Shown: positions 27,112 through 34,534 of the stretch, piece after piece
Layout of the letters: each line of letters starts with the position of its first letter
Position numbering within the stretch: the stretch's first letter is position 1
Source: Elusimicrobium minutum
GTDB taxonomy: Bacteria; Elusimicrobiota; Elusimicrobia; Elusimicrobiales; UBA9959
NCBI GenBank assembly: GCA_020723765.1
Contig: DYIF01000003.1
Span: forward strand, 1-64,000
Length of the DNA stretch: 64,000 bases
Direction of reading: 5' to 3'
Program-made: the position numbers and the translations under genes
The notes under the pieces: generated by a model
Database searches by the model: none
The model's input: only the letters and a program-made list of their open reading frames with translations
Told to the model about the DNA's origin: nothing

Positions 27112-28116
27112 CTATTCGGCTTTTTCTTTAGGGATATGAAAATATATGGATTTTTCTTTTCTTTCAAAAACAGGTTCTTTTATCGGGAAATCGAATGATA
27201 GCGAAATGTTGCTCGCGTTTCCTAAATCTTTCATTGAAGAAAATGAATAATCTATAGATAAGAATTTTAAGTTTAGTCCAAATCCGAATGAAAATCCGCC
27301 GGTTCCATGTTTTGCTTTCTGAGTATTTATCCCCCCTCTTAAAGCGAAGCTTGCGTTTTCTCCGGTTTTTAGATTAAGTTCGGTTCCCAAATTTAAGTAA
27401 TAACTGTCGTTTTTCGGTAAAACTATATCGGTAGCAAACATTAAGCTCGGGAAAGGATATATAGCGCTTCCTATCTTAAACTTTAAGGGTATGGGTACCG
27501 ATTCCCGGTCGTATCTTAAGCCGGAACCTAAATTTTGCATTAAGAAGCTGAGTTTATAAGGTATGTATGTAAATTTAAAAACCCTTATTCCCATATCGAA
27601 AGCCGTAGCTTTTGCGGTATGATATATTGTGGAGTTTATATATTTATAGGCTATACCCATTGAAACGTCGGTTTCTCTGTCGGAAAATTCGGTTATACCT
27701 TTGGAATAGCCTACGGTAATTACTTTGTCTTTAGGCGAGAATTTCCCTATTATGTTTTGGTTTATATCGGTATGTTCTATGCTTCCTATGTCCGTTATAA
27801 ATCCGGATACCGATATTACCGAATCGTAAGATATCCTTTGAGCGTAGGATATAAACTGATACTTTATGTCTTCGACATAACTTGCGTTTGATAGCATTAT
27901 CGAAAATTTCGGTATTTCTATAAGACCCGCGGGATTTGAGTAAATGGCAGAAGCGTCGTCTATTACGGCGGTTTGAGCTCCTCCCAGGGCTATTACTCTC
28001 GGATTTATATCAAGATTTAAAAAATCTCCCGAAGTAATACCGGCGGCGTCGGACGAAAAATAATTTTCGGCTCTTAAATGTGGTATTAAAAGAAATATTA
28101 TTATAAAAAATTTCAT
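27112..28116 (-). CDS. PorV/PorQ-like outer-membrane beta-barrel protein
   Basis: The 334-residue protein has a signal peptide (1-16) and the N-terminal signature of PorV/PorQ proteins: residues 40-70 carry ALGGAQTAV and ASAIYSNPAGL. The rest is alternating strands ending in an aromatic-rich C-terminus typical of outer-membrane barrels. PorV is the shuttle or acceptor component of type IX secretion. The gene is translationally coupled (ATGA) to the upstream giant protein, which ends in a T9SS-like domain. That adjacency suggests cargo and barrel work together. No other secretion-core gene is in the window. Confidence 0.8.
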   Translation of the reverse strand: MKFFIIIFLLIPHLRAENYFSSDAAGITSGDFLNLDINPRVIALGGAQTAVIDDASAIYSNPAGLIEIPKFSIMLSNASYVEDIKYQFISYAQRISYDSVISVSGFITDIGSIEHTDINQNIIGKFSPKDKVITVGYSKGITEFSDRETDVSMGIAYKYINSTIYHTAKATAFDMGIRVFKFTYIPYKLSFLMQNLGSGLRYDRESVPIPLKFKIGSAIYPFPSLMFATDIVLPKNDSYYLNLGTELNLKTGENASFALRGGINTQKAKHGTGGFSFGFGLNLKFLSIDYSFSSMKDLGNASNISLSFDFPIKEPVFERKEKSIYFHIPKEKAE

Positions 28117-31100
28117 CTTTCCACCGCTATTTTAATGGTTTTTGACCCTATGTTGGACTTTATATGGCATAAATAAACGCCGCTTCCTACCATCTGGCCT
28201 TTTGAATTTAGTCCTTCCCAGTATGCGGTACCGGTGCTATCGGATTCCGTTTCAAAAACTTTTTGACCGGAAATGGTATAAATTTTTATTTTAGATTTTT
28301 CCGGAAGATTGGTTATCGTTATCATCCCCTGCCCAGGCCTGTTGGGATAGAAAGGATTCGGGAAGACCTTTATGTTATTAAGGTCTGATGCTGGAGACAA
28401 TATTATAAGCTGATATAGACTGAAGTGGTTTAAATCCGCCGTTATTTTCCTAAGTCCGGAGTCTACAACCGTTTTTACGGGCAGGCACTGCCCGGTGTCA
28501 GGGTTATATCTGGCAAGCGCAATTTTGGATTTGTTAGTATTAATATCCGGAGGCTTGGTCGGATTGATGGCTTCGTCCGAGAAATAATCGAAGGTAAATT
28601 TGACCGGCACATAAGGTTCGGCGTTTGCGTAAATACCGAAAGTAATTGTGCTTCCGCCGAATGTATAACCGCAAGGGTTTGAATTAAGTTTGGCAACAGC
28701 TAAAGGCTGCGGAGTATTAAAGGATTCTTTTGGAACATATAAAACCACGGGTCTGTTATCTATAAGTATTCCGGTTATCTCCGTATCTGCGTTGGGGTCT
28801 GTTACGCCGGCAATTGAAGAAGGCGGAGCTCCGGCGGGACCCGCTAATGTTACGGCGGGAGTAGTGGTTTGTATTTCCGCGGTAGGCTGACCTTCCACAT
28901 TCCTTGCGGAAACGTCAAAATAATAAGTGGTATTTATCCATAAGCCGTTAACCACATAGCTTGTTCCTTTATACTCTTTTCCGAAAGGAACGGGTGTTGA
29001 AACATAAGGAGATTCGAAACTGACGCTTGTGGCTCTTACCTGATATATGGTATCGGGAGAGTTTTCTTTGGGGTCCCAGTTGACCGTAACCCCGCTTAAA
29101 GTTACCGAGGTTACATATACTCTTCCCACCGGTTGAGCTAATGTGTATTTATAGCCCAGATTGGCGGCCGTATCGGTTATTTTATCCGCTTCGTTTAATG
29201 CGTATACTCTTGCGTAATATTTATAATTGGGTTTAAGTTCGGAGACATATTCGTATATGTATGGGAATGTCGTAGAGTCGGTTTTTACTTCATAAGATTT
29301 ATAAGAAGCGAAGTTTGGGTCTTGGGAAATGTCCAATCTATATCTTGTAACATCGGTATTGCCGTTTGCGTCCCAGTTAACTTTAAAGCTTCCGGTAGTA
29401 ACCTGAGTAAAAACATTATTGGATGGCGCCGGAACCGCGGCTAAAGTATAAACTCCTCCGGATATTGAAAACGGCCCGTATATTAGTTGGTTGTAAGTCG
29501 CGGCGTCCTGTTTATAAGATCTTACTTTCACTACATAAGAAGTATTTGTAGACAGATTTACCTGAGTATAATAGTTGTAAGGAGTAGAACTTAAAAATAC
29601 CGATACGTCTTCCAATTCTTTGGTATAGAAATTGGTGGAAACTTTATACTCGTATATTTCGTAACCCGTGGCTCCCCCTGATTTGTTCCACGACCATTTT
29701 ATGGATGTGGGAGATAGAGGAGTGCCGTCGAGAGCTATTATGTTTCCGACGGTTATCGTGGATACCGGGTTGTTAAAAGTTGAAGAAAGCGGGTTTTGTA
29801 TATCGTAGACCGTTTCAACGCCGTTTCCGTTTCTCGCCTTTACCCTGAAATAGTATCTCCAGTTGGGCTCTAAGTTCCTTATAGTTAATGTAGTAAGCTT
29901 GTAATTATTTACAAACGACATCATCGTCGCATATTCCGAAAAGTCGCTGTAAGTCGATATTTCCACCTGATAAGCGGTATAGTCAGGATTATTATTTGAT
30001 CCGTCCCATGCCAAATCCACTGTATCGAAGCTTGCGTAAGTTACGGCTAAATCTTTTGGCGGATTTGCTTTTGTATATACCGTGCTTTGAGCTACCGCAT
30101 AAGTGGAAGGGTCTGAAAAACCTCCTATGTTATAACACCCTACTTTTATCGCCGAAGGAGTGTTAGGCAAAAGTCCGGTCTGATAATATGTAGCGGGAGC
30201 GCTTAAAGGGGATGGGAAGGGAACGGTTGTTATGAATACATCCGATGCGGAAAATACGGCAAAACCGTTTGCGTTATCTACGGTATTTAAACTCCAGTTC
30301 CATCTTATCGATGTAGTGCTTGCCGATTCGGCCGCCGCCAAGTTTGTTATAGAGCAAGAGGGTCTCGGAGTAGATACCTGAATTATGTAAGGATCCGAAC
30401 ATATGTTTGTCGTACAATCGTATAGATAATACCAGCCGTATGGAGCGGACGATATCTGAGGCGGTATGTTTATAGTTATGGTCGAGAGTGTCGTATTCCA
30501 GTTTGTGTTAACCGAAGTATTATAAAGCATTGTGGAAAGATTTATCATAAAGTTTTCGTTTAGAGATCTTAAAACTATATGAGGCTTGTAAAAATCGGTA
30601 TTTCTTCCCGCCGATCCCCCTCCCGATACTTCTGTTACCGAATGAAGATTGGAATATGTGCTTACGAAAGTTATGAATTCTCCGTTATCGGCTCTTAATG
30701 TGGCGGAAGATATAGAGGGTTTTCTCGGCACAAGAGATTCTAAATTTTCCTGATCTGGAGTTACTCCCGTATAATATATTTTTTGTACGCTATCCAAATA
30801 TTTATTGGCCCCGTCAAATCCACCGATTGTTATTATGCTGTTGCTTTGATCTAAAATCGTTTTAGAACCTATTCTCTTATTTATGGTTCCATGGTTTGCC
30901 GCCAATAATATATGGTTATTGTAATATTCAACAAGGCTTCTTACTAGCTCGTTAGGATCTACAGATTCACCACCGACCAAAACTATATCGTTATTTGGAA
31001 GCAGTAAGGCGTTATGGTTTGCTCTTGGTATATAAACGTCGTTTTGAGAGTCCGAAGGTTTATCGAAAACTTTTGGTAAAGTAATTACAGACCATGCTTG

Positions 31101-33944
31101 AGTGTCAGGGTTGTAAAGCTCATATTGGTCCACTACATACGAGCCGTTGCTCCCTCCTATTACCACAACAGTCCCGTCATCTAATAAAGTTGCGGTATGA
31201 GCTTTTCTTTGATTATTCATAGATGTAGTATTAGAAAAATTATTGTTTGAAATATCGAAAAGTTCGCAGTTGTTTATTACGTTATTTGTTCCGTTTACTC
31301 CTCCGGCTATTAAAACTCTATTGTTTTTTAATAAAGTCGCGGTGTGTTCGCTTCTTCTATTAGCCATAGTTGTAGGTAAGGATACCCATATATTTGCGGT
31401 AGATATAAAAATTTCACCTTCTCTTAAGTAAGACCCGGAATTTGAACCGCCCAAAACAAGAACGTTGCCGTTTGGAAGTAAAGTGGCGGTATGCAAAAGT
31501 CTCGCGTTTGTCATATCGGCGGTTTGAACTATTTTTTTAACATCGGGGTAGTATATATCGCATGTTTTAAGCGAAGCGTCTTCTTTCGTTTTCCCGCTTG
31601 TTCCGCCTACGAGTAAAACTGTTCCGTTCGGAAGAAGAGTCGCGGTATGATATGCCCTGGATACAGTCATCGTTGCCACTATTATCCAATCTTCCAGTTT
31701 TCTGTCGTACAGCTCGCAGGTATTGAATGTTTGTATACCGTCGGTTCCACCGCAAACCAGTATATTTCCGTCTTTTAATACCGTAGCCGTGTGAAAAGCT
31801 CTTTTATTGTTTAATTTTTTCAAATCCAACCATTGAGTTTCCGGGTATAAAATCAAATAAAGTCCGGAAGATGAAGGTGACATAATTGGAGTAGTTCTAT
31901 TGCAATTGGAAGGATTTGATTCGCAATTTTGTCCGCCCAATCTAAAAAGAGTTCCGTTTCTCGTAACTAAAGTTGAGTGGTTGTATGTTTGAAGACCTGT
32001 GATAATTCCCATTTTATCCGAAGGATTTAGATAGAATGTATTTGTTTTTGGATAGTATAAAGAGAAGTTTCCAAATACCATCCTTCTTATCACTATGGTG
32101 GAAGGATCTACGGTAAAGTTTACTTCTTGATTTATAGTAATCTGATTTGCGGTAAAAGAAAGATCAAATGATATGCCTAGTAGATTAGATGATACGTCGT
32201 ATGGGAACGGGATTGCATGATCGGTTGTATTTGTTATAACTCCTTCTATACCGGTCAAATTTACGCTGGTGTTTACTCTACCGTTAACTACCGTAGCTGA
32301 TATTGGCCCATATCCGTTATTTAACTGAACCGATGTAAGATTATCGGAAAAAGCTAAACTTTTAAGTGTGACCGTTCCGGTTATAGTCGCTCCATTATAC
32401 ATATCAGAAATAGGAAAATTTAATCCTATTGTCCCGGTCGAATTAGTTATATCCCTTATTGTTCCGGAGCTTAAATTACCTCCGCCTAAAAGATTTAACC
32501 TAAAACTTCCAGCTGTTGTCATATCTGTCATTAGAGGAATAGGTTTAAAAACTGCATATGAACCTGCACTTTGGTGAGGATTATATAAAGTCAATACGGT
32601 GTTTTCTTTTTCAAACCAACCGAATCCTTTGTTTTTGTCTCCAGTTACTTCAAAAGTATCCAATTGAGCGGTTGTTTTGCCGAAATATATGTCTACATTT
32701 CTAATCGCTATAGTTGGGGCTCCTTGAGAGCTTGGAGGCATAAAAATGTCGCCATCTACTACTCTTCCTAAAACCTGCCTTGAAAGCTGAGCCTGAAGAG
32801 GTAATCTAATAACAGATCCGGCAGCTATGCTTATTATTCTATTACCAGTGGAAACTGTTACTACGGGATTGGTGAAATTTACCGATGAAGGTGTGGATAT
32901 AGTTATTGATGGTTGAAAATAAGTCGGGGCTATATTACCAAACCCACTGTCTACAAAAATTTTTCCGTCGGTTAGCAAAGTGGAATTTAAATAAGCGGCT
33001 CTAAAAGGAAGAGGAATATTACCGGTAGGCGCTCTTGCGCCGTTTTGGTCGAAAACTTCCATTACATCCACAAAACCATGCGTTCCCTGATTTTGTTGTG
33101 TTTGTGTGGCCGCATTGTCTTTTGAAAATATATCAAAATTATTGTATCCGTTGAAACCGCCTATCAAAACTGTAAAACCGTTAGGTAATGTTGTAGCCGT
33201 GTGATATGCTCTACCTGATAATAAAGAGGGACCTGGAGCAAATACTCCGGTATTAGGATCGTATAACTCCGTGGTTAGCATATAATCGCCAGCTACGCTG
33301 CTGTAACCTCCGGCTATGAAAACCTTTCCGTTTGGGAGAAGGTTTGCGGAATGGCCGGTTCTTGAGCTTGTCATAGTGGGGCCGGGTTTAAACTGAGTAG
33401 TACTTGTTATAAATATCTCACAGGTATTATGTGTCGTTCCAGCCAAATTTTTGCCGCCGCATATTAAAACATTACCGGCATCCGGTCCTTGAGTTAATAA
33501 AGTGGCGGTATGTTCCATCCTATTAACGGACATAGCTACGGTTTGTCTTGTGGGATTGTTTAGAGGGTTTTTATAATCTATGGTTAATATGTCCGCCGTA
33601 TTGCTAACGCCCGGTTCAAATGTGAATCCTCCTGTTATTAGAATTCTACCGTCCGGCAATAGAGTCATGGTATGACTTGCTCTTTCTACGCTTAAAATAT
33701 TTGAATATTGTTTATAGTAAGGCCCATCTAATGGACCTAATGGTGAAACACCTATTGAAACACCTTTTGTATGAGGAAAATGAATAAAACAATCGTCGTT
33801 AAAAGCAGCATTTGAATTGTTGCCTCCGCAAATTAATATGTTTGAATCCGGAAGCAAAACCATTCCCGTATTGCTTTGAGAAAATAGAAAAGAGTTTAAA
33901 AAAAAGAGAATTTGTAAAATTATATATCTTTTAAATAAGTTCAT
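28113..33944 (-). CDS. Giant secreted kelch-repeat/FN3 protein with type IX-like C-terminal domain
   Basis: The roughly 1943-residue protein has a signal peptide, then a kelch block (to about residue 300) with repeats like HTATLLPNGxVLxxGG. A beta-rich insert follows (about 330-640), a second kelch block (about 650-1060, six or more repeats), a galactose-oxidase-like E-set domain (about 1075-1190) and four or five FN3 domains (about 1195-1690). The last 80 residues (from VFPNPFYPN) resemble a T9SS type A sorting domain or FlgD-like Ig fold. The frame opens with TTG at 33950, but ATG 33944 is more likely. It is a probable surface or extracellular protein. Catalytic galactose-oxidase copper residues were not identified. 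Confidence 0.85.
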   Translation of the reverse strand: MNLFKRYIILQILFFLNSFLFSQSNTGMVLLPDSNILICGGNNSNAAFNDDCFIHFPHTKGVSIGVSPLGPLDGPYYKQYSNILSVERASHTMTLLPDGRILITGGFTFEPGVSNTADILTIDYKNPLNNPTRQTVAMSVNRMEHTATLLTQGPDAGNVLICGGKNLAGTTHNTCEIFITSTTQFKPGPTMTSSRTGHSANLLPNGKVFIAGGYSSVAGDYMLTTELYDPNTGVFAPGPSLLSGRAYHTATTLPNGFTVLIGGFNGYNNFDIFSKDNAATQTQQNQGTHGFVDVMEVFDQNGARAPTGNIPLPFRAAYLNSTLLTDGKIFVDSGFGNIAPTYFQPSITISTPSSVNFTNPVVTVSTGNRIISIAAGSVIRLPLQAQLSRQVLGRVVDGDIFMPPSSQGAPTIAIRNVDIYFGKTTAQLDTFEVTGDKNKGFGWFEKENTVLTLYNPHQSAGSYAVFKPIPLMTDMTTAGSFRLNLLGGGNLSSGTIRDITNSTGTIGLNFPISDMYNGATITGTVTLKSLAFSDNLTSVQLNNGYGPISATVVNGRVNTSVNLTGIEGVITNTTDHAIPFPYDVSSNLLGISFDLSFTANQITINQEVNFTVDPSTIVIRRMVFGNFSLYYPKTNTFYLNPSDKMGIITGLQTYNHSTLVTRNGTLFRLGGQNCESNPSNCNRTTPIMSPSSSGLYLILYPETQWLDLKKLNNKRAFHTATVLKDGNILVCGGTDGIQTFNTCELYDRKLEDWIIVATMTVSRAYHTATLLPNGTVLLVGGTSGKTKEDASLKTCDIYYPDVKKIVQTADMTNARLLHTATLLPNGNVLVLGGSNSGSYLREGEIFISTANIWVSLPTTMANRRSEHTATLLKNNRVLIAGGVNGTNNVINNCELFDISNNNFSNTTSMNNQRKAHTATLLDDGTVVVIGGSNGSYVVDQYELYNPDTQAWSVITLPKVFDKPSDSQNDVYIPRANHNALLLPNNDIVLVGGESVDPNELVRSLVEYYNNHILLAANHGTINKRIGSKTILDQSNSIITIGGFDGANKYLDSVQKIYYTGVTPDQENLESLVPRKPSISSATLRADNGEFITFVSTYSNLHSVTEVSGGGSAGRNTDFYKPHIVLRSLNENFMINLSTMLYNTSVNTNWNTTLSTITINIPPQISSAPYGWYYLYDCTTNICSDPYIIQVSTPRPSCSITNLAAAESASTTSIRWNWSLNTVDNANGFAVFSASDVFITTVPFPSPLSAPATYYQTGLLPNTPSAIKVGCYNIGGFSDPSTYAVAQSTVYTKANPPKDLAVTYASFDTVDLAWDGSNNNPDYTAYQVEISTYSDFSEYATMMSFVNNYKLTTLTIRNLEPNWRYYFRVKARNGNGVETVYDIQNPLSSTFNNPVSTITVGNIIALDGTPLSPTSIKWSWNKSGGATGYEIYEYKVSTNFYTKELEDVSVFLSSTPYNYYTQVNLSTNTSYVVKVRSYKQDAATYNQLIYGPFSISGGVYTLAAVPAPSNNVFTQVTTGSFKVNWDANGNTDVTRYRLDISQDPNFASYKSYEVKTDSTTFPYIYEYVSELKPNYKYYARVYALNEADKITDTAANLGYKYTLAQPVGRVYVTSVTLSGVTVNWDPKENSPDTIYQVRATSVSFESPYVSTPVPFGKEYKGTSYVVNGLWINTTYYFDVSARNVEGQPTAEIQTTTPAVTLAGPAGAPPSSIAGVTDPNADTEITGILIDNRPVVLYVPKESFNTPQPLAVAKLNSNPCGYTFGGSTITFGIYANAEPYVPVKFTFDYFSDEAINPTKPPDINTNKSKIALARYNPDTGQCLPVKTVVDSGLRKITADLNHFSLYQLIILSPASDLNNIKVFPNPFYPNRPGQGMITITNLPEKSKIKIYTISGQKVFETESDSTGTAYWEGLNSKGQMVGSGVYLCHIKSNIGSKTIKIAVER

Positions 33945-33998
33945 TTTCAATATATGATACCAGAAAATATGTTACAAAATTATTAATTTTTTTTAAAA

Positions 33999-34487
33999 TC
34001 ATTTTATTTCTAACAAAGAAAAAGCCCCGTCCTTGGATTTTTTCGCTTTCGGATCCAGAATCTTTTTACCGTCCACCATAAAGTAATATTTATATTCCCC
34101 CGGGTCTTTGATGGTAAGTTCCATAATCCAATCGCCGTTTTCTTTTTTCATATCCCTTTCTTTCCATCCGAAGAAACTTCCGTTAAGTTTTACCTTTTTA
34201 GCTTTTTTAGTTTGATATTTTATTGTTACTTTATGAAGTTTGGGCTGTTCCGATTGAGCGTTTTGAATCTGTTGTATGTTTTCGACTGTTTTTGTCTCCG
34301 TTTTGACTTCCATACTTTTAGTTTCAGATGTTTTCGTTTCTTCGGTATTTGGAGTTTTTATTTCGGTTATCTCTACGGTATCTTTATAAAGATAAATCAT
34401 AAGTCTATCGTAAATCATTTTTCCTGATAATATAAAAATAGCACCGGCTATTATTATTTTAATTAAAACTTTGTTTCTTTCCGTCAT
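33999..34487 (-). CDS. Membrane-anchored protein with AMPK/CBM48-like domain
   Basis: The 162-residue protein starts MTERNK at ATG 34487, with AAAGGGG upstream; an in-frame start 30 bases earlier is less likely. A membrane helix (about 9-28) is followed by a Thr/Glu/Lys-rich linker (about 40-85) and a C-terminal E-set domain (about 88-162) with VKLNGSFFGWK and GEYKYYFMVDG. That pattern is typical of the glycogen-binding domain of AMPK-beta and CBM48 proteins. It may tether glycogen or another glucan at the membrane or outside it. No glucan enzyme is adjacent. Confidence 0.75.
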   Translation of the reverse strand: MTERNKVLIKIIIAGAIFILSGKMIYDRLMIYLYKDTVEITEIKTPNTEETKTSETKSMEVKTETKTVENIQQIQNAQSEQPKLHKVTIKYQTKKAKKVKLNGSFFGWKERDMKKENGDWIMELTIKDPGEYKYYFMVDGKKILDPKAKKSKDGAFSLLEIK

Positions 34488-34515
34488 TTTATCCCCTTTA
34501 ATCTTTATTAACATC

Positions 34516-34534
34516 AAAGCTTATTCTAAGCTTT
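34516..34534. repeat. Hairpin AAAGCTT-attct-AAGCTTT
   Basis: A perfect 7-bp stem with a 5-base loop lies just upstream of the CBM48-like gene on the minus strand. There is no T-tract on either side, so it is not a standard terminator. It could be an operator or part of the remnant DNA that continues to the tRNA gene. Confidence 0.4.

Follow-up and report, generated by a model that had tools for sequence, protein, structure and literature searches.

In the type A route of the type IX secretion system (T9SS), as described for Bacteroidota, the C-terminal domain (CTD) of the cargo is held inside SprA by loops of PorV, and the pair leaves sideways (PMC10994853). According to one account, a single PorV is common to all type A cargo in Bacteroidota, and the carrier of a type B cargo, as for PorP/SprF in Flavobacterium johnsoniae, usually has its gene immediately downstream and is presumably required in an amount that matches the cargo (PMC12618676). 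This type B carrier has been proposed to place or anchor its cargo (PMC12618676, PMC9143113). In the absence of PorU, PorQ and PorZ, PorV may keep hold of the cargo, as suggested in PMC7323717; PorZ is itself described as a surface protein handling LPS (PMC8545088). One study confines T9SS to Bacteroidetes, with 60 of 97 Bacteroidetes genomes positive and none in other clades (PMC4793230), and another limits it to the Fibrobacteres-Bacteroidetes-Chlorobi group (PMC11205867). Among open-licence papers we found none that treats Elusimicrobiota in connection with type IX genes or with kelch proteins.

Here we present a gene pair from a 2.1 Mb, 98% complete genome of this phylum, located in a window of 64,000 nucleotides (the whole stretch of DNA analysed). 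From sequence and predicted structure we consider it reasonably likely that the pair, a giant kelch protein and a PorV-family barrel, forms one unit of a sortase-less, T9SS-like export and display route in Elusimicrobiota, in which each cargo would have its own cognate PorV. The features of the locus, all on the minus strand, are as follows.

27112-28116, minus strand: open reading frame (ORF) of the PorV/PorQ-family outer-membrane barrel, 334 aa, the proposed cognate carrier or anchor
27115-27186, minus strand: conserved C-terminal peptide past the last barrel strand (alignments; model pLDDT mostly <50)
28113-28116, minus strand: 4 bases shared between the cargo stop and the PorV start
28113-33950, minus strand: ORF of the giant kelch/E-set/FN3 protein (the cargo), 1,945 aa, frame opening with TTG
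28116-28400, minus strand: type-A-like sorting tail, residues 1851-1945 (TIGR04183)
28836-30365, minus strand: FN3 repeats, about residues 1196-1705 (PF00041, four stretches)
30366-30755, minus strand: galactose-oxidase-like E-set, about residues 1066-1195 (fold match only)
30756-31850, minus strand: second kelch propeller, galactose-oxidase-like, about residues 701-1065 (kelch profile and fold match)
32016-32870, minus strand: strand-rich insert, about residues 361-645 (long strands in the model)
32871-33875, minus strand: first kelch propeller, N-terminal part, about residues 26-360 (kelch matches, beta model; borders approximate)
33999-34517, minus strand: gene that opens the conserved cluster; its 172-aa product has a hydrophobic segment at the N-terminus and an AMPK1_CBM/CBM48-like domain

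The cargo probably starts at the ATG at 33944, which lies two codons inside the TTG frame and was the start used in an earlier note on this DNA. That note had claimed that the two genes are translationally coupled, and the 4 bases shared by the cargo stop and the PorV start make this plausible. The AMPK1_CBM-type product scores 39 bits with PF16561 (cut-off 26.8), and its gene beside the cargo hints at a polysaccharide connection.

The barrel belongs to the PorV/PorQ family, reaching 142.3 bits with NF033709 against a curated cut-off of 90. It stays below the cut-offs of the two equivalogs, with 57.6 bits against 250 for PorV (NF033710) and 115.6 bits against 220 for PorQ (NF033711). The best VIA matches of its AlphaFold2 model (pLDDT 79.7) are PorV chains of the SprA complex (8gl6_F, Z 33.0; 6h3i_F, Z 32.7), followed by FadL (Z 29.7). 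By sequence, a 31-row PorV profile run against 177,635 PDB sequences matches only the PorV of the SprA complex (E 5e-16). The PorV-like barrel proposed earlier is thus upheld; its label of acceptor is better replaced by cognate carrier, perhaps anchor too. The peptide past the last barrel strand is strongly conserved in close orthologues only, and distant ones end short.

Profile searches with the whole cargo return Kelch_4 (E 1.9e-43) and fn3 (E 3.5e-27, four stretches), and an AlphaFold2 model spans residues 24-1205 with a mean pLDDT of 85.8. Repeats and predicted model agree on two propellers and a strand-rich insert, consistent with the two kelch propellers, one interrupted by a beta insert of about 300 residues, and the FN3 repeats that had been read from the letters. 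The predicted first propeller has a conserved Cys164/Cys177 pair, and residues 261-645 are the least conserved stretch (mean 0.49). The modelled residues 701-1193 match galactose oxidase and GlxA with Z 35-38 over about 420 aligned residues at 2.4-2.7 Å, well above the Z of 28 for Keap1 and other plain kelch propellers. The galactose-oxidase-like E-set is therefore recovered by the fold of propeller and E-set together; by sequence the E-set gives no significant match, the best E of 0.05 belonging to chance hits.

Galactose oxidase and GlxA are AA5 copper radical oxidases that share this propeller-then-E-set fold; in the cargo, by contrast, it is joined to a second propeller, FN3 repeats and a sorting tail. 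The copper ligand set of AA5 enzymes comprises two His (one in the E-set), two Tyr and a thioether Cys. Across 39 aligned sequences, neither a His in the cargo E-set nor a Cys in propeller 2 is conserved, and the His residues that are conserved in propeller 2 correspond to the kelch His found once in each blade; a copper oxidase activity of the giant is accordingly set aside. For the earlier description of a copper-free relative of galactose oxidase, the kinship holds at the level of fold, and the ligand set looks incomplete as judged by conservation rather than by residue-level superposition.

The C-terminus of the cargo was also claimed to be of the sorting type, and profile models bear this out. 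The cargo scores 34.7 bits with the type A model TIGR04183 (cut-off 23) and, as a whole protein, 24.7 bits with Por_Secre_tail, below the cut-off of 27. The tail alone reaches 27.0 bits with PF18962, which equals its cut-off, and 14.7 bits with FlgD_ig (PF13860), short of the 27 bits required. We thus reject a FlgD-only reading of this tail, though it may apply to some other pairs. In the PDB the nearest matches of the tails are type IX CTDs, those of PorZ (E 5e-8), PorU (1e-5) and SprA-bound NucA (1e-4), and FlgD follows at 4e-4. The tail is the most conserved part of the cargo, with a mean of 0.76 versus 0.49-0.72 elsewhere. An invariant late lysine (position 90 in the first alignment row) falls opposite a lysine of the NucA tail bound to SprA and may be the one described as contacting PorV in PMC10994853.

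Conservation was assessed within the family and across the phylum. In a survey of 59 family genomes including our own, 44 have a single cargo match that begins no later than residue 144 and reaches the C-terminus, with 38-52% identity once self is excluded, and several further genomes have split matches. Among 149 phylum genomes an N-terminal cargo profile matches in 46, and over its full length in only about 23, split matches counted (14/14 in the family of our genome, 7/7 in f7, one in f8 and 1/43 in f2, where most of the other genomes measure 1.2-1.8 Mb). We then compared 79 kelch loci, of which 47 are titled Elusimicrobia or grouped with them (five titled only 'bacterium' were grouped by us) and 32 come from other groups. 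The sequence of 40 of the 47 includes the cargo end with its tail. Since overlapping longer ORFs can hide a PorV gene, it was sought in all frames, and it lies downstream of the cargo at 39 of these 40 loci; the sequence of the single exception stops 68 bases past the cargo. The AMPK1_CBM gene lies upstream at 36 of the 39 Elusimicrobia-group loci with room for it. Tail, PorV and AMPK1_CBM gene are absent from all 32 loci of other groups. At one locus (L131:3854-9468) the giant occupies two overlapping frames, a frameshift or sequencing error. Another tail-bearing protein, of about 1,200-1,260 residues, is likewise widespread; in many family genomes it matches the FN3-to-tail part of the cargo (about residues 1300-1945).

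The kelch giant and its PorV do not stand alone as a pair. Its genome holds about 15 PorV-family genes (17 rows), eight of them above the cut-off, and a large tail-bearing ORF precedes seven of these eight as well as one below it (C21). A tail profile finds 11 tail-bearing ORFs, including by construction the nine large ORFs of this genome from which it was built, and eight of the 11 have a PorV-family gene immediately downstream; the three unpaired ones are frames of 184, 509 and 13,077 residues. The paired cargos have unrelated bodies, which are of kelch, PQQ-type propeller, FN3, sortilin-type propeller and carboxypeptidase-regulatory-like kinds. Going by profile scores, several partner tails resemble FlgD no less than they resemble type IX CTDs: among the seven other paired cargos, the tails of L018, L021 and L022 exceed the FlgD_ig cut-off, L018 gives no type IX match of any kind, and L025 bears FlgD_ig repeats. 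The 13,077-residue frame (G000:C6, from about 189635 upward, minus strand; L031, L245) has a tail like those of paired cargos and no adjoining PorV-family gene; past one opposite-strand gene lies a 279-aa ORF of unknown type. Elsewhere (G000:C6:138724-147000, L016) a 4,363-residue frame overlaps the start of a 1,045-aa tail-bearing cargo that is followed by PorV, giving three closely packed genes.

Gene order was followed across the phylum in the 40 strongest PorV rows outside this genome, with about 4 kb upstream and 1.5 kb downstream examined. A tail ORF ends within 800 bp upstream in 26 of the 40 and is found in 30 across the examined stretch; none lies downstream, and the remaining 10 have no tail ORF in that stretch. 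For 34 pairs, tail and PorV distances are correlated (Mantel r 0.668), and none of 2000 within-genome partner shuffles, whose mean is 0.302, reaches the observed value. The eight tail-PorV pairs of this genome alone give r 0.661, reached by 11 of 5000 shuffles. Duplication of linked genes, without binding, could also be a source of this co-variation.

The genome encodes a homologue of SprA/Sov (P0003, 1,757 residues), which scores 126 bits with TIGR04189 (E 6e-37), below the equivalog cut-off of 200. Outer-membrane barrels often end in a strand with a terminal Phe, and so does P0003. In the PDB, a 19-row phylum-wide SprA profile matches only SprA chains (E 2.5e-36), with an alignment colinear over SprA 150-269, 697-778 and 1132-1577; a single-sequence search of the PDB gave no match. 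Pfam SprA_N matches only one of the 19 homologues, which leaves TIGR04189 and the profile match in the PDB as the basis of the case for SprA. The homologue is present in 129 of 149 phylum genomes and the PorV family in 132, with both in 126, neither in 14, SprA only in three and PorV only in six, one of which (G048) is 99% complete. The Fisher p of 1.4e-12 for this co-occurrence overstates the evidence, as the genomes are not phylogenetically independent and all 14 double absences fall in one clade of mostly small genomes, f10. Within f10, many small genomes of genus g24 jointly lack SprA and PorV genes.

The search for further type IX components covered SprA, PorU/C25, GldM and GldL, the last three without a positive-control genome. 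On those terms, the PorU profile matches this genome only at non-catalytic C-terminal positions 874-1094, mostly at tails, the C25 sortase domain has no match, GldM (PorM) is found neither here nor in any genome searched, and GldL (PorL) is not found here and gives a weak match in 1 of 149 genomes. A full T9SS in this genome is not supported by these sequence searches. The earlier note would have given up its reading had the genome shown no type IX genes and the tail matched FlgD only; this is not the outcome, since an SprA homologue is present and the cargo tail scores higher with type IX models than with FlgD_ig. In the same genome (G000:C2, L023:7418-15529) a PorV barrel is fused to TPR repeats, and after it come two long ORFs and a pair of genes like MotA and MotB; the arrangement might supply energy to an SprA route that has neither GldL nor GldM.

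In the route that we favour, Sec would export the giant protein to the periplasm. Its C-terminal tail would then enter the SprA-like outer-membrane channel, where its own co-translated PorV-family barrel would catch it, and cargo and carrier would exit the channel sideways as a pair. As the searches gave no PorU-type sortase, the most likely course is that the cargo retains its tail and remains on its PorV as an anchor. Outside the cell, the anchored propellers and E-set would bind polysaccharide or another polymer. The surface-display pair proposed earlier gains indirect support from the SprA homologue, the class-wide conservation of the pair and the tail-PorV co-variation. The analysis shows the homologies, the gene pairing with its conservation, the co-variation and the presence of the SprA homologue; secretion, binding, location at the surface, anchoring, ligand and source of energy are inferred, as is the adhesion or polymer binding that the earlier note had thought possible.

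Three other explanations deserve weighing. A complete but diverged type IX system, with a sortase and a motor that the profiles are too distant to recognise, would cut the tail and attach the cargo covalently or release it, leaving PorV as a mere shuttle. SprA, the PorV family and CTDs are indeed all present, MotA/MotB-like genes lie near the PorV-TPR gene, and GldM and C25 were sought without a positive control; yet one recycled PorV serving all cargo would not call for a co-varying PorV for each, PorU matches are confined to non-catalytic positions mostly at tails, and GldL is a weak match in a single genome. We hold such a system to be unlikely. Less probable still is an ordinary FadL-fold outer-membrane channel beside a structural protein that is periplasmic or otherwise exported and ends in a FlgD-like Ig tail, with no type-9-like transport. 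The strict order of cargo then PorV, the co-occurrence of an SprA homologue with PorV, the preference of the cargo tail for type IX models and a PorV profile that matches only PorV in the PDB all weigh against it, even though the FadL Z nearly equals that of PorV and several paired tails match FlgD_ig.

The giant might instead be a fixed part of the export machine in a PorZ-like role, and not one cargo among many. PorZ is found at the cell surface and, like the giant, combines propellers with a type A CTD, and its CTD is the best PDB match of the tails. That match is confined to the CTD, however, and the other domains differ, PorZ having to our knowledge neither FN3 nor a galactose-oxidase-like E-set. 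A full-length giant in 44 of 59 family genomes and the adjoining AMPK1_CBM gene would suit a machine part; PorZ is described as handling LPS (PMC8545088). Most SprA-bearing genomes of the phylum lack the giant, whose full-length count is about 23 of 149, so that it cannot be a general machine part. We rate this the most improbable of the three.

The preferred reading, a route of cargos with cognate PorVs, can be placed between the two described types. With type B of F. johnsoniae (SprB-SprF) the Elusimicrobiota pairs share a downstream carrier gene, a large adhesin-like cargo and one carrier per cargo, whereas their tail is type-A-like and their carrier belongs to the PorV/PorQ family. With type A of Bacteroidota (SprA, PorV, PorU) they share the SprA homologue, the PorV-family barrels and type-A-like CTDs with the invariant late lysine; in contrast to that route, the genome has many PorVs each with a cargo, and PorU, GldM and GldL were not found. 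The pairs thus appear, by sequence, to join type-A-like tails and PorV-family barrels to the one-carrier-per-cargo layout of type B. More tentatively, and at somewhat less than even confidence, Elusimicrobiota may have an early-branching or reduced form of T9SS, in which type-A-like cargos stay on dedicated PorVs, the cargo-specific carrier either came first or replaced a shared PorV and sortase, and the motor is not GldL/GldM.

Through an SprA homologue in most sampled Elusimicrobiota and numerous PorV-cargo pairs, a phylum that has received little study would gain a route for protein export and display. The matched pairs make the specificity between carrier and cargo testable via tail swaps, and the route would provide a reference case for studying how SprA, carriers, a sortase and a motor were joined into one system.
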